Shown here: one piece after another, positions 42,988 to 64,000 of the stretch | Numbering within the stretch: position 1 is the stretch's first letter | Layout: each line of letters starts with the position of its first letter | NCBI RefSeq assembly: GCF_016859125.1 | Contig: NZ_CP069338.1 | Coordinates: 5,209,501-5,273,500 of the forward strand | Length of the DNA stretch: 64,000 nt | Reading direction: 5' to 3' | Origin: Archangium violaceum | GTDB taxonomy: Bacteria > Myxococcota > Myxococcia > Myxococcales > Myxococcaceae | Program-made: the position numbers and the translations under genes | The notes under the pieces: model-generated | What the model was told of the DNA's origin: nothing | Database searches by the model: none | The model's input: the letters and a program-made list of their open reading frames with translations, nothing else

Positions 42988-44640
42988 TTGTCCTCGACCA
43001 CACCGCGCAACATGACCGACTACGAGGCCACCTACCGCGGATTCCGGTGGGAGCGCCCCGAGTACTTCAACTTCGCCACGGACTTCGTCGACCGCTGGGC
43101 CACCGAGCGCCCCGATGCGCCCGCGCTGCAGTGGAGTGACGAGGCCGGGCACGCGCAGCTCTTCACCTGGAAGGAGGTGAAGCAGCGCTCGCTGCACGCG
43201 GCGCAGTTCCTCACGAGCCTGGGCCTGCACAAGGGCGACCGCGTCTTCGTGATGATGCCGCGGATTCCGGAGTGGTGGTTCCTCACGCTGGGCTGCATCC
43301 GCGCGGGCATCGTCTTCATGCCGGGCACGCCGATGCTCACCGCCAAGGACATCCGCTACCGGTTGCTGGCGGCGGACGCCAACGGGGTCATCGCGGACGC
43401 GAGCTGTCTGGACAGGTTCGAGGGCCTGGTGGGCACGGGCCGGGTGGAGACCTGGGTGGCGGTGGGCTCCGCGCCTTCGCCCTGGGTGGTCTTCCCGCCG
43501 GGAGGGGCGGGCACGGGCCAGCACGGCGCGCAGTTCGAGCGCACGCGCGCGGATGATCCGATGCTCATCTACTTCACGTCGGGCACCACGGGCATGCCGA
43601 AGATGGTGCAGCACACGCAGGCCAGCTACGGGCTGGGGCACCAGATTACCGGCCGCTACTGGTTGGACCTGACGCCGGAGGACCGGCATCTGACGCTGTC
43701 GGACACGGGCTGGGCCAAGTGCGCGTGGGGCAAGCTGTTCGGCCCGTGGAGCCAGGGCGCGTGCAACGTGGTGTACGACTTCCGGGGCCGGTTCGACGCG
43801 GCGCGGATTCTGCGGGTGCTCGAGCGCCAGAAGGTGACGACGTTCTGTGCGCCCCCCACGGCCTGGCGCGCCCTCGTGCTGCAGGACCTGTCCCAGTACG
43901 ACCTGTCGTCGCTGCGGCACGCGTTGAGCGCGGGCGAGCCGCTCAACCCCGAGGTCATCGACACGTGGAAGCAGGCCACCGGGCTGCACATCCGCGAGGG
44001 CTATGGGCAGACGGAGTCGGTGGTTCTGGTGGGGATGTTCCCCTCGCTGGAGCCGAAGGCGGGCTCCATGGGCAAGCCGTCTCCGGGCTTCGACGTGTCC
44101 GTCATCGACCACGAGGGGAAGGAGCTACCGGCGGGCCAGGAGGGCGACATCGCGGTGCGGGTGAAGCCGGAGAAGCCGGTGGGCCTCTTCGATGGTTACC
44201 TCAACGACGAGTCGTCCAATCTGGTGTCGTTCCGGGGCGACTGGTACGTGACGGGCGACCGGGCGGTGAAGGACGCGGACGGCTACTTCTGGTTCGTGGG
44301 ACGGCGTGACGACGTCATCAAGACGTCGGGCTACCGGGTGGGGCCGTTCGAGGTGGAGTCGGCCCTGCTGGAGCACGCCGCGGTGGCGGAGTCCGCGGTG
44401 GTGGGCGTGCCGGATGAGCGGATCGGCCAACGCATCAAGGCGTACGTGGTGCTGGCGCCGGGCTTCAAGGGCTCGGAGGCGCTCGCCGAGGAGCTGCGCG
44501 AGTACGTGAAGAAGACGACGGCGCCCTACAAGTATCCTCGGGAGATCGAGTTCGTGATCGAGCTCCCGAAGACGGTGAGCGGGAAGATCCGCCGCACGGA
44601 GCTCCGTGCGATGTCTCAGCAGCCTCCGAAGAAGGACTGA
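42988..44640 (+). CDS. Acyl-CoA synthetase (AMP-forming, ACSM-like)
   Basis: The product is 550 aa with a TTG start (AGGAG 7 nt ahead). ANL-superfamily motifs: P-loop 'YFTSGTTGMPKMVQHT', 'GEPLNPEVI', 'GYGQTESV' (A5), 'GDWYVTGDRAVKDADGY' (A7) and 'YRVGPFEVE', with the terminal catalytic Lys region 'KTVSGKIRRTEL' (A10). It resembles medium-chain acyl-CoA ligases: fatty acid plus ATP plus CoA to acyl-CoA. It converges with thioredoxin. Acyl chain length is not predictable from sequence alone. Confidence 0.88.
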   Translation: MSSTTPRNMTDYEATYRGFRWERPEYFNFATDFVDRWATERPDAPALQWSDEAGHAQLFTWKEVKQRSLHAAQFLTSLGLHKGDRVFVMMPRIPEWWFLTLGCIRAGIVFMPGTPMLTAKDIRYRLLAADANGVIADASCLDRFEGLVGTGRVETWVAVGSAPSPWVVFPPGGAGTGQHGAQFERTRADDPMLIYFTSGTTGMPKMVQHTQASYGLGHQITGRYWLDLTPEDRHLTLSDTGWAKCAWGKLFGPWSQGACNVVYDFRGRFDAARILRVLERQKVTTFCAPPTAWRALVLQDLSQYDLSSLRHALSAGEPLNPEVIDTWKQATGLHIREGYGQTESVVLVGMFPSLEPKAGSMGKPSPGFDVSVIDHEGKELPAGQEGDIAVRVKPEKPVGLFDGYLNDESSNLVSFRGDWYVTGDRAVKDADGYFWFVGRRDDVIKTSGYRVGPFEVESALLEHAAVAESAVVGVPDERIGQRIKAYVVLAPGFKGSEALAEELREYVKKTTAPYKYPREIEFVIELPKTVSGKIRRTELRAMSQQPPKKD

Positions 44641-55545: not shown

Positions 55546-57261
55546 TCACCACGTGCCCACGCCGAGGTGCAGCCCTCCGCGCGCCTCTATCTCCTCCAGG
55601 AGCGCGGAGCCGCCGAGCGCGAGGCCGTAGGCGGGCATGGACTCGGTGACGAGCCGGCCGTCCTCTCGGGCGAGGTACGTCACCGGCACGGAGAGGCGGG
55701 AGAAGCCGGTGGTGCGCAGCAGCTTCTCCGCGGCGCGGGTGAGGAGGAAGGCGAGGGCGAGCTCCACTCCGTGCTCGGCCAGCAGCGCCAGCACCCGGTG
55801 GGTGAGGCGGGTCCCGAGTCCCTGGCGTTGGTGCTCGGGTGCCACCGCGATGCCCAGGCCCGCCACCTTCACCATGCGGCCTCCCAGCATCACCTCGCGG
55901 AAGGTGACGGCGCGGAAGCCCGCGAGGGCGCCGTTGCGCCGCACCGTCACCACCAGGTCCGGCCGCGTGTCGTAGTAGTAGCGGCCGTGCAGCGCGGTCT
56001 CGCCCGGGAAGGTGCGGGCCACGAGCGCGCACAGCTCCGCCTCCAGCCCGGGTGGGAGCGCGCCGGTGTCGTGCACCTCGAGCGTCTCGTCCGCTCCTGG
56101 CGGAGGCCGGGCCCGCCCGCGCGCCTTCACCGTCTCGTTGTAGAGCACCACCTTGTGCAGCTCCACCGTGCCGCCGAAGACGGAGAGGCACAGCAGATCC
56201 CTCAGCATCCCCTCGGCGCCCTCGCCCCGGCGCAGGCCCTTGCCACCGAGCACGCGCATGAGGCCCTGGGCCGCGTCCACCGCCGCTTCCACGCCGTGCA
56301 GCTTGATGATGGACAGGATGCCGAACACGTCCTCGCCTCGCGACAGCGCGCCGAGCGCCGAGTCGAGCAGCGCCTCCAGCGTCTCCTCGGCCACGCGCAT
56401 GCGCACCAGCCGCTCCTGGATGTACTGGTGGCGCCCCAGGGGCTCGCCGAAGGTGCGGCGCGCCTGCGCGTGCGCCATCCCCCGCTCCAGGCAGCGGCGC
56501 ACCGCCGCGAGGTACAACACGCCGGTGAGCAGCCGCTCCTCGGTGAAGGTGGTGCGGAACAGCCGCACGCCGTCGCCGGGCTCGCCGAGCCGCGCGTCCG
56601 GGGGCAGCATCACCCGGCGGGCGACGAGGTTGCCGGTGGCGGAGGTGGACAGGCCCGTGAGGTCCGTCACCGGGCGCATGTACACGCCCGGGAGGGCCGT
56701 CTCCAGGAGGAAGAGGTTCACCGCGTGGGAGGGAGGCACGCCGGCCAGCCGCGCGGAGACGATGGCCAGGTCCGCGGACCCCACGTTGGTGATGCTGCAC
56801 TTGCGCGCGTCGAGTCTCGGTCCGTCCCGGGTGGGCACCACGCGCGCACGGAGGGCGAGGATGTCCGTCCCCGCCCTCGGCTCACTGTTGGCCACGGCGC
56901 CCACCCACTCACCGGAGAGGAGGCGGGGCAGGTGCCGCTCCCGCTGCGCCTGGGAGCCGGCATGGGCCAGGAGTCGCACGCAGACGAGGTGCGTGAGCAG
57001 CGAGGTGGCCAGTCCGAGGTCCCCCGAACCCGCGGCGAAGCCCGCGAGCGCATGCACCGCGCCAGTGAGCCCCTCGCCCCCCATTGCTGGCTCCAGGGCC
57101 GCGCGGAACATCCCCGCCTCGCCGAGCCTCTTGAACGCCGTGCGATCCAGCCCCGTGCTGGGGTGGGGGTCTGCCCTCCGGCGCTTGCGGCCCCCCTTCG
57201 CGCACTCGGCGCGGTAGCGATCACCCAGGGCGCGGAACCGTTCGTACAGGGCGCTCCTCAT
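55546..57261 (-). CDS. Acyl-CoA dehydrogenase / GNAT (NodA-like) acyltransferase fusion
   Basis: The product is 571 aa from ATG 57261 (GGGAGG 5 nt ahead). Residues 1-380 are an acyl-CoA dehydrogenase fold ('GDLGLATSLLTHLVCVRLLA', 'VGAVANSEPRAGTDILALRA', 'LGGKGLRRGEGAEGMLRDLL'). Where many family members have the catalytic Glu (YEGT-type motif), this has FGGT (363-366 region), so the dehydrogenase base appears missing. Residues 400-571 are a GNAT domain: 'DTRPDLVVTVRRNGALAGFR', 'VKVAGLGIAVAPEHQRQGLG' (acyl-CoA loop Q-x-x-G-x-G, 473-486). The strand order recalls the NodA fatty-acyl transferase. The fusion may bind an acyl thioester and transfer the acyl group; function is inferred only. Confidence 0.8.
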   Translation of the reverse strand: MRSALYERFRALGDRYRAECAKGGRKRRRADPHPSTGLDRTAFKRLGEAGMFRAALEPAMGGEGLTGAVHALAGFAAGSGDLGLATSLLTHLVCVRLLAHAGSQAQRERHLPRLLSGEWVGAVANSEPRAGTDILALRARVVPTRDGPRLDARKCSITNVGSADLAIVSARLAGVPPSHAVNLFLLETALPGVYMRPVTDLTGLSTSATGNLVARRVMLPPDARLGEPGDGVRLFRTTFTEERLLTGVLYLAAVRRCLERGMAHAQARRTFGEPLGRHQYIQERLVRMRVAEETLEALLDSALGALSRGEDVFGILSIIKLHGVEAAVDAAQGLMRVLGGKGLRRGEGAEGMLRDLLCLSVFGGTVELHKVVLYNETVKARGRARPPPGADETLEVHDTGALPPGLEAELCALVARTFPGETALHGRYYYDTRPDLVVTVRRNGALAGFRAVTFREVMLGGRMVKVAGLGIAVAPEHQRQGLGTRLTHRVLALLAEHGVELALAFLLTRAAEKLLRTTGFSRLSVPVTYLAREDGRLVTESMPAYGLALGGSALLEEIEARGGLHLGVGTW

Positions 57262-57393
57262 GCACGCCTCCCATGAGGGCGACTCTACACCCATGGAAGG
57301 CTCCAGCCGGTGACCCCTGGCGCGGCCTCCCCGCCGCATGTCTGGCGGGAGACCGAGCATGTCACGGGAGCGTATCCAGGGCCGCGCCGTGGG

Positions 57394-58581
57394 TCAGGCC
57401 TTGCCCAGTGCCTGCTCCAGGCGGACGGCCTCCTGCCGCACGGGGTTCTCCTCGGACAGCGGCAGGGCCAGGACCTTCTTCACCTGCTCAAGAGCCCTGG
57501 CCTGCTGTCCCGACCGGGCGAGGGCCAGGGCGAGGTTGAGGTGGGGCTCGGGCTGCTTCGGATCGCGCCGGATGGCCTCCTCGAGCACCGTCACGGCACG
57601 GGGAAGGTGTTGGTCCTCCTGCTCGGAGGGCATGCGCAGCAGGAGTTGGCCCAGGTTGTTGGCGGCGCGCCAGCCGTCGGGTGCCAGACCCATGGCCGCC
57701 TCGTAGGCCGCCACCGCCTTGTCATACGCGGGGGGCTCCTCCGCCTCGTAGCAGGTGGCCTCCGCCATCTTGAGGGACTCGTTGGCCAGTCCCAGCGAGT
57801 CCATGGTGCGGCACAGGTGGAGGACCTGCTGGAACTGTCCGCGCGCCAGCATGAGCTGCGCCAGGTTCGCCTGGGCGTCCGGATCCCTGGGCCGCTGGGC
57901 CGCGAGCGCCGAGGCGGACTTGTAGGAGGTGTTCAGGTCCCTCAGCGCCATGGCCAGCACGGTGAGCGCCGCGAGCAGGCGAGGGTGGCGGGGGAGCGCC
58001 TTGAGCCCCTGCTCGAGAACGCGCCGCGCCTCCGTCAGCTCATCCCTCGACGCGAGCGCGTGGGACAGGCTGAGGTACGCGGGGACGAAGCGGGGCTGCT
58101 GGGCGACGACCTCTCGCAGGGTGGCGAGGCCCTCTTCGTCCTTGCCCGCCTCCAGCTGCACCTGCCCCAGCCGGTAGCGGAAGACGGCGTTGGTCGGGTC
58201 GAGCTGCGCGGCCTTGGTGAGGGCCTCCAGCGCCTGCGCCGCCTTGTCCTGCTTGATGAGCATCATCCCGCGGCCGAAGTGGGCCTCGGCGCGGCGGGAG
58301 TCCTGGGCGATCACCTGCTGATAGGCCTTGAGGGCCGCGTCGAGCTGACCCTTCTGGGCGGCCACGTTCGCGCGCACCAGCAGGGTGTCCGCCGTGGCGC
58401 CCTGGGCCTCGGCCTTGGCGACCAGCTCCTCGGCCTGGGGCAGTTTCCCCTCCAGCAGGGCCAGTTTGGCCAGGACGACCAGGGCGTCCCGGTTCGTCGG
58501 CTGGCGGGCGAGCACCTTCTTCGCTTCCGCCTGGGCCTGGGCCGTCTGACCCGCCGCGAGGAGCTTCTCGAGAGGATTCAT
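57394..58581 (-). CDS. Tetratricopeptide repeat protein
   Basis: The product is 395 aa made of about nine to ten TPR units: 'DALVVLAKLALLEGKLPQAE', 'AEAHFGRGMMLIKQDKAAQA', 'AVFRYRLGQVQLEAGKDEEG' and 'EPHLNLALALARSGQQARAL'. No signal peptide or membrane helix, so it is a cytoplasmic scaffold. It is 54 bp downstream of the Gly/Ala-repeat gene on the same strand, possibly co-transcribed. Confidence 0.85.
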   Translation of the reverse strand: MNPLEKLLAAGQTAQAQAEAKKVLARQPTNRDALVVLAKLALLEGKLPQAEELVAKAEAQGATADTLLVRANVAAQKGQLDAALKAYQQVIAQDSRRAEAHFGRGMMLIKQDKAAQALEALTKAAQLDPTNAVFRYRLGQVQLEAGKDEEGLATLREVVAQQPRFVPAYLSLSHALASRDELTEARRVLEQGLKALPRHPRLLAALTVLAMALRDLNTSYKSASALAAQRPRDPDAQANLAQLMLARGQFQQVLHLCRTMDSLGLANESLKMAEATCYEAEEPPAYDKAVAAYEAAMGLAPDGWRAANNLGQLLLRMPSEQEDQHLPRAVTVLEEAIRRDPKQPEPHLNLALALARSGQQARALEQVKKVLALPLSEENPVRQEAVRLEQALGKA

Positions 58582-58635: not shown

Positions 58636-59586
58636 CTACCAGCCGCCTACGAGATCCTTGATGCCCTCGCCGACGTTCTTGATGCCCTCGCCCACGCTCT
58701 TCACGGCGTCGCCGACCTTGCTCACGTCCAGCTCGACGCCGAACTCCACGCTGGCGCCGATGCCCAGCGCGGCGCCCACGTCGAAGTTGGCGGCCAGCTT
58801 GCCGTCCTTCAGGCCCACGTTCGCCTCGAACTCGGCGCCGATGCCGGCGAAGGCCTCCGCGCCCACCGTGGCGGCAGCGGGACCCACCTCCTGCTTCACC
58901 TCGGCGCTGGCGCGGGCACCGGCGAAGGCATCGCCGCCCACCTGGGCCGCCACGTCGCCGTGGAGCGGATCCACCACCACCTGGCCCTGCACGCTGGCCT
59001 CGGCGCCCACGTTGCCCTCGGCCTGCCACGAGGTCCGGCCCACGGGGCTGTCGACGTGGCCCTCCACGGAGCCACGCACCAGGTCCGCCTTCGCCTCGGC
59101 GGAGCCCTGCGCGATGAGCTTGCCGTTGGCCGGGTCGACACTCACGGAGCCGTTGGCGCCCACGCCAGCGGTGAGGGCCTGGCCCTCCACCTTGTTGTAG
59201 AAGGAGCCGTCCTTGCTGCCCGCCTCGTGCTGGCCCGAGAAGGCCGTCCAGTCCTTGCTGACCCCACCGGAGGCGAGCTCCTGCTCGAAGCCGCTCGTCT
59301 CCAGGGTCTTCTGGATGGACGTCTGCTCGGCGCTGTTGGTGGCCGTGTTGCTGCGGGAGGTCCGCGTGCCGTCGAGCAGCGCCTGCTCGTGCGGCGTGAG
59401 CTTCTCGCCCTTCTCCTTCTTGGCCTTGGCGGCGTCGATCTCCGCCTGGCGCTTCGGGTCCGTGTCACGGCGGAAGTCGCGCTGGACCTCGCGGTACGCC
59501 TGGTTCCGCTCCGCACCCTGCTCGGCATGGCGAGTGGACACAGGACGGTGGCGGTTGAACTCAGCGGAACGCGAGATCGAGGTCAT
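58636..59586 (-). CDS. Gly/Ala-rich repeat protein, unknown
   Basis: The product is 316 aa. A charged N-terminal region (about 1-85, including 'KAKKEKGEKLTPHEQALLDG') is followed by 'QHEAGSKDGSFYNKVEGQAL'. A long alternating region (about 130-300) of Gly-Ala-Glu/Asp-Val strands comes next: 'GANGSVSVDPANGKLIAQGS', 'QVVVDPLHGDVAAQVGGDAF' and 'AAATVGAEAFAGIGAEFEAN'. No signal peptide. It ends with a short amphipathic repeat (VGEGIKNVGEGIKDL). Similar filamentous segments occur in some polymorphic toxin and PAAR-associated proteins, but I cannot assign a role. GGAG precedes the ATG. Confidence 0.6.
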   Translation of the reverse strand: MTSISRSAEFNRHRPVSTRHAEQGAERNQAYREVQRDFRRDTDPKRQAEIDAAKAKKEKGEKLTPHEQALLDGTRTSRSNTATNSAEQTSIQKTLETSGFEQELASGGVSKDWTAFSGQHEAGSKDGSFYNKVEGQALTAGVGANGSVSVDPANGKLIAQGSAEAKADLVRGSVEGHVDSPVGRTSWQAEGNVGAEASVQGQVVVDPLHGDVAAQVGGDAFAGARASAEVKQEVGPAAATVGAEAFAGIGAEFEANVGLKDGKLAANFDVGAALGIGASVEFGVELDVSKVGDAVKSVGEGIKNVGEGIKDLVGGW

Positions 59587-59692: not shown

Positions 59693-61228
59693 TCACTTCG
59701 AGTCCTTCTCCAGAGCGCTGGGCGCGTAGCGCCCCGGGGCCAGGATGCCGGCCGGATCCAGGGCCCGCTTCAGCCGCCGGAGGATCGCGGGAGAATCATC
59801 CACCGTGGGCAGGGTATCTCCCTCCGCCTGGAGGCCGAGCCGGGTGGGGTAGTACCCGGCGGTGGACAGCTCGCGAGCCAGCGCCCGGTAGCAGGCCAGG
59901 GCGCGATCATCCTCTCCGCGTCCGTCCCGGTCGAAGGCGATGGCGATGACCAGGTAGAGACAGCGAGGGGAGTGGGCCAGCAGCGCCAGGTTGGGCTCGA
60001 AGCCGAACAGGCGGGGCACGCGATCCGCCATGCTCACGGCGCGTTGGGCCTCCTCGCCCGTGAAGGGGAGGGCCACCGAGCACCAGATGAAGCCACAGCG
60101 GTCCCGATCCGGGTGCGGCTCCTCCGGGCGCGGGGTGCGCTTGCGCCAGTACGCCATGGTCAGGTTGGCGTCCGTGGGGACTCCCTGGAAGGCGCTCTCG
60201 CCGTCCGGTGGCGGGGGCGAGAGGCGCAGCGGGCGCGGCAGTCCCTCCAGCGCGGCGGCCAGCCGCCGTTCCAGCACCGCGCCCATGTCCTCGTCCGGCG
60301 CGTGGAGGGCGCCGCTGATGGCCCAGCGGCCGAAGCCCTCGCGGAACTGCTCCAGGGCCCACGTGGGCAGCGGAGTGCGCCCACCCACCGCGGCATACGG
60401 GTACTGCCGCGACACGCTGAGCGCCTTGATGTCGTTCCAGAAGAAGAAGCTGCCGCGCAGCGTGCCATCGAGCGCGAGCGCCTGGAGCCGGTCCACCCGC
60501 TCCCAGAGCTGGGCGTCCTCGTCCACCGAGCAGAAGAACTCGCGGAGGTAGGGCTGCTTTCGCGCCAGCCAGAACGTCATGCGCGTCACCACGCCCAGCG
60601 AGGACTGGCTGAAGAGTCCATCGAGGGAAGGGCCCACGCCCCAACGGAAGACGGGAGCCGCGCGCGCGTTGGGAAAGCGCGCGTGCCCCGTCTCCAGCCG
60701 TTCGCCCGTGGGAAGCACCACCTCCAGGCCGCACACGTGCTGGAAGATGTCCGCGTGAGGCCCGCGCCCATCCCCCCGCTCGAGCGCGTTGCCCACCATG
60801 CTGGCGTCCGCCGAGCCTCCGATGGTGGTGATGAAGAGCCGGGAGCCCTGGGCCCTCAACCAGGCATGGGCCTGACGGAAGGTGACGCCGGGCTCGACGG
60901 TGAGGTACGCCAGCTTCTCGTCGTGGCCGAGGATGCGATTCATCCGGCCCAGCTCCATCAACACGCAGCCATCCCGAGGCGGCACGCGCGAGCCATAGCC
61001 CCAGTTGCGTCCGGCGCTCACCGGGTAGATGGGGACGCGGTGTTCCTGCGCGATGCGCAGACAGGCCTGGACCTCGGCGGTGCTCGCCGGACGGAGGATG
61101 GCCGGAATGCGCTGGGTGGTGGCGAAGGTCGCCGTCTCCGCGGCCGCGAGTGCCTCCGGCTCGGTGATCACGTGGGCCTCGCCCAGCGCGGAGCGCCACG
61201 CGGCCAGGGCGGTTTCCAGCGCGCTCAT
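59693..61228 (-). CDS. VAO-family FAD-linked oxidase (4-cresol dehydrogenase/eugenol hydroxylase-like)
   Basis: The product is 511 aa from ATG 61228 (GGGAGG 6 nt ahead). FAD-binding PCMH domain: 'RVPIYPVSAGRNWGYGSRVP' (hallmark of 4-cresol dehydrogenase and vanillyl-alcohol oxidase flavoproteins), 'GLFSQSSLGVVTRMTFWLAR', and a C-terminal cap ending 'DPAGILAPGRYAPSALEKDS'. It oxidises para-substituted phenols or aromatic alcohols, with FAD likely. The electron acceptor (O2 or cytochrome) is unclear, as no cytochrome gene is adjacent. It diverges from the Sit-like remnant. Confidence 0.8.
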   Translation of the reverse strand: MSALETALAAWRSALGEAHVITEPEALAAAETATFATTQRIPAILRPASTAEVQACLRIAQEHRVPIYPVSAGRNWGYGSRVPPRDGCVLMELGRMNRILGHDEKLAYLTVEPGVTFRQAHAWLRAQGSRLFITTIGGSADASMVGNALERGDGRGPHADIFQHVCGLEVVLPTGERLETGHARFPNARAAPVFRWGVGPSLDGLFSQSSLGVVTRMTFWLARKQPYLREFFCSVDEDAQLWERVDRLQALALDGTLRGSFFFWNDIKALSVSRQYPYAAVGGRTPLPTWALEQFREGFGRWAISGALHAPDEDMGAVLERRLAAALEGLPRPLRLSPPPPDGESAFQGVPTDANLTMAYWRKRTPRPEEPHPDRDRCGFIWCSVALPFTGEEAQRAVSMADRVPRLFGFEPNLALLAHSPRCLYLVIAIAFDRDGRGEDDRALACYRALARELSTAGYYPTRLGLQAEGDTLPTVDDSPAILRRLKRALDPAGILAPGRYAPSALEKDSK

Positions 61229-61373
61229 CGCCGACCTCCCCACGGGGGCTGGGAGGGGAACAGAGGAGGGGAGCACGGCTTCCGACGATGGACTGTCACG
61301 TGGCCCAGTATGCCAGACGCGGCGAGGGGGTCCGGTATGGAGGCAGGGGGGGAAATCCGGCTCGGAGGGCACC

Positions 61374-62454
<1,081 letters not shown>

Positions 62455-62467
62455 GCCGTGCCTCTGC

Positions 62468-64000
62468 TCAGTTCACCGTGAACTCGCGTGACGTGCCGCT
62501 GTAGGCGCGGATGAGTCCGTCCCAACCGGACTTCCAGTCACCGTCATGGCGGATGCGGTAGGTGCCCGGCGGGGTGTCCGCCGGAATCTTCCACTCGATG
62601 GTGACATGCGAGCACCCGAAGGTGGGCGCGCAGTTGTTGCGCTCCCAGCGGTACTTCGTCTCCCAATCCCAGTCGTTGGCCACCGTCACCCACGAGGTGC
62701 CCGACTTGCGCTGCACCTGCAGGTAGCTGCCCTGACGGCGGAGGTTGTTCTTCGGGTGGCCGCCCCAGAACTTCACGCTCACCGTCTCGCCCCGGAGGTA
62801 GGCGGCGCGTGCGTCCGTGACGACGCCACCGAAGCTCGTCATCAGCGGTTTGTCGTCGTACACCACGCCCGTCTGCACCGTCGTCTGGTTGTTGCGCAGG
62901 TCTCGCGGAGTGGAGCCCGGCGCCACGCTGGCGCCCGTGCGCATCGCGATGGCCAGCTTGTCCACCTCTTGATGCACCGCCGCGAGCTGCCATGGGCCGA
63001 AGTGGGTGGAGGCGCCCTCGTAGTCCTGCTTCGCGTACTCCTCGCGCGTGGTCAGGTAGCCGGCGTAGGCGTTGGACAGGCCGGCGATGATCACCTGGTC
63101 CACGCCCAGCGGAGAGAGTTGCGCGAGCACCTGCTTGCGTAGCCTTCGGCCGGACATGGTGGTGGGCTCGAAGGGCACCGCCACCAGCGCCACGTTGCCC
63201 AGCCTCACCACCTGGAGCGGCAATACCTCGGGCGTCCACGGGTAGGGTTGCATCGTGCCCATCTCGAGGACGATGGGCTTCTCTCCCTGACACGGGGTGG
63301 TGAAGAGGGTGCAGTTGAAGACCTTCCAGACGTCGTCGATGCTCTCGCAGGTGGCACCCTCGGAGCCGAAGCCCGGGCCGTCCTCGGCGCCCGCCAGCAT
63401 GGAGTCACCGATGGCCGCCTCGCAGGTGGTGTGCGAGAGGCCGTCCGCGTACTGGGGCGCCACCTGCACCTCGTCCATCTCCACGTAGGCGTGCCGGTAG
63501 TCCACCCCTCCCGTCACCGTCGTCGAGGCGGTGTCGTAGAGCGCCCTGGCCAGGTCGAACTGCTTGCCGCCGGAGAGCTCCGTGCTCTCGAAGTCGTCGG
63601 CGCCGCCGCCGTTGGTTCCGCCGTGGATGTTGGGCGTCACGTCGCCCTCGTTGCTCTGCGCGAAGGCCGCCACGAAGGTGCGCTGCTCGGTGTAGCTCGT
63701 CCCCTTCAGCTTCTCGAAGAGGTAGGACGCATAGCCCTTGTTGTCGCCGCTGATGAGCAGGTTGTCGTTGCCCATGGACGTGCCATGCACGGCGAACCAG
63801 TTGATGAGGCCCACCTCGCGCCCGTCATCTCCTTGCAACCGCAGCAGCGTCATGTGCTTGTCGGTGTCGTGGTCGAACTGCGTCCGCTCGGTGGAGGGGT
63901 TGCGCAGGTAGGCCTCGGGGGAGCGGTTGATGCTCGCGTCGAGCAGGTCGCCCGAGGCGATGCGGATGCTGCCGGGCGCGAGGTTGTCATGGGCTCGGAC
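62468..64000 (-). CDS. Neutral/alkaline ceramidase, 5' end beyond the window
   Basis: About 511 codons are visible; the start lies past 64000. The family core is present: 'LINWFAVHGTSMGNDNLLIS' and 'AFAQSNEGDVTPNIHGG' (the nucleophile loop, where characterised ceramidases have Ser in GDVSPN or GNLSPN and this has Thr). Then 'VVRLGNVALVAVPFEPTTMS', 'AGLSNAYAGYLTTREEYAKQ' and the C-terminal beta domain to 'AYSGTSREFTVN'. These zinc enzymes hydrolyse ceramide to sphingosine and fatty acid and are usually secreted. Ceramide is eukaryotic-type lipid and also present in some myxobacteria, so prey digestion or lipid turnover are both possible. Confidence 0.88.
   Translation of the reverse strand, partial: VRAHDNLAPGSIRIASGDLLDASINRSPEAYLRNPSTERTQFDHDTDKHMTLLRLQGDDGREVGLINWFAVHGTSMGNDNLLISGDNKGYASYLFEKLKGTSYTEQRTFVAAFAQSNEGDVTPNIHGGTNGGGADDFESTELSGGKQFDLARALYDTASTTVTGGVDYRHAYVEMDEVQVAPQYADGLSHTTCEAAIGDSMLAGAEDGPGFGSEGATCESIDDVWKVFNCTLFTTPCQGEKPIVLEMGTMQPYPWTPEVLPLQVVRLGNVALVAVPFEPTTMSGRRLRKQVLAQLSPLGVDQVIIAGLSNAYAGYLTTREEYAKQDYEGASTHFGPWQLAAVHQEVDKLAIAMRTGASVAPGSTPRDLRNNQTTVQTGVVYDDKPLMTSFGGVVTDARAAYLRGETVSVKFWGGHPKNNLRRQGSYLQVQRKSGTSWVTVANDWDWETKYRWERNNCAPTFGCSHVTIEWKIPADTPPGTYRIRHDGDWKSGWDGLIRAYSGTSREFTVN

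Follow-up and report, generated by a model that had tools for sequence, protein, structure and literature searches.

The window, a 64,000-nucleotide stretch of the Archangium violaceum genome (a single contig of 12.68 Mb), contains a gene that encodes an acyl-CoA dehydrogenase (ACAD) half followed by a GNAT acyltransferase half (Table 1). Such a fusion had been described in the first-pass annotation, and our Pfam searches agreed, with domains of both halves scoring over cut-off within one minus-strand ORF. The longest ORF begins earlier, at position 57360, and would encode 604 amino acids. We rejected that start because, in three other Archangium genomes, the open frame of the orthologue has no start codon before the ATG of M-R-S-A-L, the counterpart of position 57261. 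Residues are numbered here in the 571-amino acid protein, that is, the 604-amino acid ORF numbers minus 33.

Table 1. Features of the ACAD-GNAT gene, its upstream neighbors, and the separate genes of genome G185. Positions refer to the window unless a locus (L) is named.
Feature	Position	Strand	Basis or detail
ACAD-GNAT fusion gene	55546..57261	-	571 aa + stop; stop 55546-55548; start ATG at 57261
ACAD half, ~residues 1-378 (N, M, C domains)	56128..57261	-	Pfam search
GNAT half, ~residues 392-571	55549..56088	-	Pfam search and family alignment
Asn125, presumed position of human SCAD Leu154 (flavin contact)	56887..56889	-	alignment; mapping via motifs
Ser156, replaces the aromatic of the (W/F)IT motif	56794..56796	-	family/paralogue alignment
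Glu242 codon, aligned to the human IVD catalytic base	56536..56538	-	single-sequence and profile alignments
Arg336, presumed position of human SCAD Gln365 (FAD-binding)	56254..56256	-	alignment; mapping via motifs
FGGT (residues 362-365) instead of YEGT	56167..56178	-	sequence and alignment
QRQGLG, fits the GNAT pyrophosphate-binding pattern	55813..55830	-	family alignment
TPR protein, directly upstream of the fusion	57394..58581	-	Pfam; same order in 4 fusion-bearing Archangium genomes
Upstream protein-coding ORF	58636..59586	-	same order in 4 fusion-bearing Archangium genomes
FAD_binding_4 oxidase, upstream	59693..61429	-	Pfam; same order in 4 fusion-bearing Archangium genomes
Neutral/alkaline ceramidase, further upstream	62468-64000, runs past window (L086 5169-7517)		Pfam, 388.4 + 186.6 bits
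G185 GNAT	L044 132-656	-	gene call
G185 ATP-grasp	L044 650-1729	-	gene call
G185 AOS	L044 1787-3046	+	gene call
G185 ACAD	L044 3043-4155	+	gene call

Named orthologues come from Archangium violaceum Cb vi76 and A. lansinium. Open frames of 574-578 codons span both halves in the three other Archangium genomes, and the encoded proteins are 84-86% identical to ours across their entire length. Both halves are under purifying selection, with pairwise dN/dS values of 0.15-0.29 for the ACAD half and 0.30-0.46 for the GNAT half; constraint is weaker on the linker (0.31-0.66) and on the N-terminal tail (0.18-1.16). The concern that a conserved stop or start between the halves might reveal an annotation artefact did not materialize, and we rejected it on the in-frame orthologues, the shared start, and the low pairwise dN/dS. 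An AlphaFold model built with three closely related sequences as input was too poor for use (pLDDT 46.5, pTM 0.39).

The upstream gene order, including the ceramidase, is kept in the four Archangium genomes that carry the fusion. Two downstream genes, encoding a membrane protein and a helix-turn-helix protein, adjoin it in only one of the other three genomes (G002). Our comparison of gene order in these four genomes found no tie from the neighboring genes to the function of the fusion. An AMP-binding (acyl-CoA-ligase-like) gene is located at 42988-44640, approximately 11 kb from the fusion.

Catalytic glutamate and flavin site of the ACAD half

Three Pfam ACAD domains scored over cut-off in this half (98.1, 44.9, and 41.3 bits), so that it comprises the N, M, and C domains of the superfamily. 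As had been noted before, it reads FGGT where YEGT is usual, and the GGT of this motif is found in all eight members of the family, a set of sequences that represents about five lineages. The accompanying claim that the catalytic glutamate is lost was not borne out. The second glutamate of TFTEERLL, Glu-242, aligns with the glutamate of the isovaleryl-CoA dehydrogenase (IVD) motif, its equivalents counted along the alignments being E254 in 1ivh_A and E286 in 8sgr_A, and E286 is given as the catalytic base of IVD in PMC10709515. The superfamily carries this residue at either the EGT or the IVD position; Glu-242 occupies the IVD/LCAD position, the place named beforehand as decisive against the loss. 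A glutamate is present there in 8/8 family members, and we rejected on these grounds an ACAD that is dead through loss of its base.

The paralogues of the same genome (27 ACAD-fold matches minus the fusion gene, leaving 26) put the FGGT motif into context. Six of them have a glutamate at the IVD position and a glycine or alanine at the EGT position, 10 show the reverse arrangement, and none has both; the remaining 10 have neither and are divergent, their alignment being less certain. Judged from these alignments, FGGT is normal for an ACAD of the IVD type, because six other ACADs of this genome share the arrangement. The fusion is real and the description of FGGT was correct; the reason for calling the ACAD dead was wrong.

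At three positions in or next to the flavin site, on which the first-pass annotation did not comment, all eight family members are altered. Two of them, Asn-125 and Arg-336, presumably correspond to Leu-154 and Gln-365 of human SCAD, a mapping that we placed by sequence motifs, and we take the aromatic residue of (W/F)IT, replaced at position 156, to be a flavin neighbor. Position 156 is serine or arginine in the family and aromatic in 24/26 paralogues, including all 16 that bear a catalytic glutamate. Position 336 is arginine, alanine, or glycine in the family; the 16 glutamate-bearing paralogues have glutamine (11), glutamate (4), or serine (1). The flavin-contact threonine, Thr-158, is present in 8/8 members, and Arg-268 and Phe-271 of the RxxFG motif are present in 7/8. 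The exception, in genome G071, has an ACAD without the N-terminal domain and the RxxFG motif and an intact GNAT half (L041 8753-10204); this fusion may be decaying, or the sequence may reflect a truncation or an assembly error. PMC13027082 lists L154, T187, R297, and Q365 as flavin contacts of human SCAD, and reports that Q365H blocked tetramer formation and that L154R severely reduced activity. These comparisons suggest that the flavin site of the ACAD half may be remodeled or lost.

The ACAD half could, as a consequence, be a non-redox module that binds acyl thioesters, much as the first-pass annotation had imagined, or serves as a scaffold, with the changed flavin site and not the glutamate as the reason. 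The family-wide substitutions at positions 125, 156, and 336, the harm done by the two SCAD mutations, and the shortened ACAD of G071 are all consistent with such a role. A catalytic base would, however, be superfluous for pure binding, and it is retained throughout the family, as are Thr-158 and, in 7/8 members, Arg-268 and Phe-271, in a half that is under purifying selection. Because the base is present, although the flavin site has family-wide substitutions, a non-redox role appears the less likely one, and we consider it improbable.

The GNAT half and the distribution of the pair

In the whole-protein search, three Pfam GNAT models scored over cut-off for the C-terminal half, at 35.1, 32.6, and 28.6 bits. 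With the GNAT half alone, Acetyltransf_1, Acetyltransf_9, and Acetyltransf_7 scored over cut-off. The pyrophosphate and acyl-CoA-binding pattern of GNATs, (Q/R)xxGx(G/A), is found in 6/6 aligned family members, and with the Pfam domain it places this half in the GNAT superfamily. Its C-terminal end fits a pattern shared in the family, (L/I)(H/C)LGxGx(W/F).

NodA transfers acyl chains, unsaturated ones included, to an amine, as is proposed below for the GNAT half. The likeness to NodA noted in the first-pass annotation is real and weak: the NodA model (PF02474) scored 15.2 bits (E = 0.017) with the whole protein and 18.2 bits with the GNAT half alone, and it matched 4/6 family members at E ≤ 0.1, whereas four general GNAT models matched 6/6. 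Membership in the NodA family was rejected, as the scores lie under the Pfam gathering cut-off of 22 bits. The nearest solved structures to this half are weak matches, mostly N-acetyltransferases.

A search of 195 Myxococcota genomes gave strong matches to the GNAT subfamily in eight (at least 97 bits, the next match scoring 34; best 18 or fewer candidates per genome), and strong matches to the ACAD subfamily were found in those eight as well (at least 392 bits, the next scoring 227; best 10 candidates per genome). When weaker matches are included, the total is nine genomes for the GNAT search, G011 being the weak addition, and 11 for the ACAD search, which adds three weaker ones. The halves are fused in seven of the eight genomes. 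In the eighth, G185, they are separate genes within approximately 4 kb, so the two halves do occur as neighboring genes of one cluster, a possibility raised at the outset. The fusions and the clustering in G185 support a joint function of ACAD and GNAT. Co-occurrence is trivial in the seven genomes where both are one gene, with independent evidence coming from G185 alone, and the four Archangium genomes count as one lineage.

A genome search with limited candidates per genome gave no fusion match in two further genomes of the same genus (G003 and G005), and in the class of G182 only G182 and G185 matched among 16 genomes. A pattern scan that reached beyond Myxococcota, suited to close relatives only, returned 57 stretches, of which three encode a relative; these represent two distinct loci, both from Archangium. 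No place covered 80% of the query among 1710 matching plasmid records or among 24 matching phage records. The GNAT half alone had no plasmid match, and the viral contigs gave no ACAD match and one weak GNAT match.

Partner genes in three lineages

In three lineages (G182, G185, and G103), the pair is accompanied by an α-oxoamine-synthase-type (AOS) PLP enzyme and a d-Ala-d-Ala-ligase-like ATP-grasp protein. The order is ATP-grasp, a small opposite ORF, AOS, and ACAD-GNAT in G182, and ATP-grasp, AOS, an ASH-domain protein, and ACAD-GNAT in G103. The frames of AOS and ACAD have 1 base in common in G182 and 4 bases in G185. We recognized no carrier-protein gene by eye among the called genes (ORFs of at least 60-80 amino acids) beside the family members.

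At E ≤ 1e-90, the ATP-grasp was found in 4/195 genomes (G182, G002, G103, and G185), all of which have the pair; the next best match was at 8.8e-47, and a threshold of E ≤ 1e-30 admitted 99/195 genomes. The AOS was found at E ≤ 1e-90 in 5/195 genomes, again all with the pair; two of them, G002 and G004, have a form of 48% identity that is located elsewhere. Close copies of the two enzymes were not found in the genome of our fusion, where the best matches were 31% (AOS) and 35% (ATP-grasp) identical.

The ATP-grasp gene of G002 lies approximately 10 kb upstream of its fusion. In a comparison by eye (start of L085 and L086 7600-9397), this cluster-type gene stands where the genome of the window has none between matching neighbors, as if it had been gained or lost at that locus. 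The 48%-identical AOS relatives of G002 and G004 are at L047 8795-10240 and L048 4919-6364. The L047 relative adjoins, according to Pfam, a Cupin_8 gene and a gene with a B12-binding domain; the latter is presumably a radical-SAM protein, an assignment that Pfam did not find, and these surroundings are possibly those of another small pathway.

Serine palmitoyltransferases are among the enzymes that the AOS partner resembles, which raises the idea of a sphingolipid-like N-acylated long-chain base, with the AOS acting as serine palmitoyltransferase and the GNAT half as a bacterial ceramide synthase. The neutral ceramidase gene upstream of the fusion in the four Archangium genomes would fit this pathway. 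The AOS, however, falls short of the cut-offs for serine palmitoyltransferase (at best 159.6 bits against 640) and is absent at E ≤ 1e-60 from four of six Archangium genomes, the ATP-grasp would have no obvious role, and no ceramidase was noticed by eye in the three full clusters. We regard a sphingolipid product as highly improbable.

Proposed function and comparison with known systems

As the best reading, we tentatively propose that the gene encodes a bifunctional biosynthetic enzyme in which an acyl-thioester dehydrogenase feeds a GNAT acyltransferase. The ACAD half, of the IVD or prolyl-carrier-protein-dehydrogenase type with Glu-242 as the base, would accept a thioester, acyl or aminoacyl, carried by CoA or by a carrier protein, and dehydrogenate it at the α-β position, so that the activated acid probably gains a double bond. 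The GNAT half probably passes such an acid on to another molecule; it would take the unsaturated acyl group off the thioester and join it to an acceptor, for which an amine is the likeliest candidate. Where relatives have the AOS and the ATP-grasp, the product could be an amidated small molecule derived from an amino acid or an aminoketone. We infer FAD binding and redox activity for the ACAD half, the use of its product as the GNAT donor, and both substrates. In favor of the proposal are the conserved Glu-242, the clear score gaps that set off the same eight genomes for both subfamilies, the clustering in G185, the overlapping AOS and ACAD frames, and the RedW and PigA models as best NCBIfam matches. 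The three changed flavin positions, the shortened ACAD of G071, the lack of close AOS and ATP-grasp copies in the genome of the fusion, the NCBIfam scores far under cut-off, and the failure to recognize a carrier-protein gene by eye beside the family members speak against this proposal.

Its logic parallels two known systems. The first is the pair formed by MbtN and the GNAT-like MbtK in mycobactin biosynthesis. According to PMC4376628, MbtN desaturates an acyl chain and MbtK attaches the chain to a lysine amine. These are separate proteins, whereas the Archangium enzyme is one chain, and the ACAD half scored 35.7 bits against an MbtN equivalog cut-off of 700 (NCBIfam). The second comprises the tRNA-synthetase-paralogue clusters described in PMC2922099, in certain of which ACAD occurs only with GNAT and is proposed to make its acyl substrate; unlike in the fusion, the two are separate genes there, with different cluster partners.

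Acetyl-CoA is the donor of most GNATs. The two halves might accordingly act at separate, non-consecutive steps of a common pathway, with the ACAD half oxidizing one intermediate and the GNAT half acetylating another with acetyl-CoA, so that the first does not feed the second. The preponderance of N-acetyltransferases among the weak structural matches of the GNAT half agrees with this arrangement, as does G185, where the separate GNAT gene lies beside the ATP-grasp gene and the ACAD gene beside the AOS gene. In the other seven genomes, however, ACAD and GNAT are fused to each other while the neighboring AOS is not, and in the mycobactin precedent an ACAD-type enzyme modifies the very chain that the acyltransferase attaches. 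Non-consecutive steps therefore seem somewhat unlikely to us.

A broader idea is a new myxobacterial pathway, in which a flavin-site-remodeled ACAD-GNAT enzyme, the AOS, and the ATP-grasp would yield a new class of metabolites, aminoketones or peptides that are N-acylated and possibly enoylated, and in which the ACAD glutamate might serve chemistry other than ETF-linked dehydrogenation; this we consider quite doubtful. We found no description of the ATP-grasp/AOS/ACAD/GNAT gene set in the open-licence PMC literature, nor of an ACAD-GNAT fusion in its titles and abstract openings, and as far as that literature shows, enzyme and pathway are uncharacterized. A dehydrogenase and acyltransferase in a single chain would be a compact tool for unsaturated amides, and the product of the gene set found in three myxobacterial lineages can be sought directly.

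Returning to the proposed dehydrogenase-acyltransferase, we compared the ACAD half with its closest relatives. An isovaleryl-CoA dehydrogenase is the top solved-structure match (4kto, 210.9 bits) and has its catalytic glutamate at the same position. Human IVD retains the tryptophan of WITN and the glutamine of QxxGG, which the fusion family does not, and has no GNAT half. The best NCBIfam models were RedW (168.1 of 650 bits), named as a carrier-protein dehydrogenase, and PigA (163.7 of 500 bits), both under their cut-offs. Among the RedW/PigA/AnaB prolyl-carrier-protein dehydrogenases, 5zw0 also has a glutamate at the IVD position; it differs in retaining the phenylalanine of FITN and the glutamine of QxxGG, both lost in the fusion family, and in being without a GNAT half. 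Proline dehydrogenases of pyrrole pathways use carrier-protein-bound proline, as stated in PMC10849742. The three plasmid ACAD matches that we inspected, of 15 listed, adjoin ketosynthase-III genes, and two of them also adjoin carrier-protein and adenylation genes. Because the nearest models are proline dehydrogenases and the plasmid ACADs have such neighbors, an aminoacyl substrate is possible for the ACAD half.
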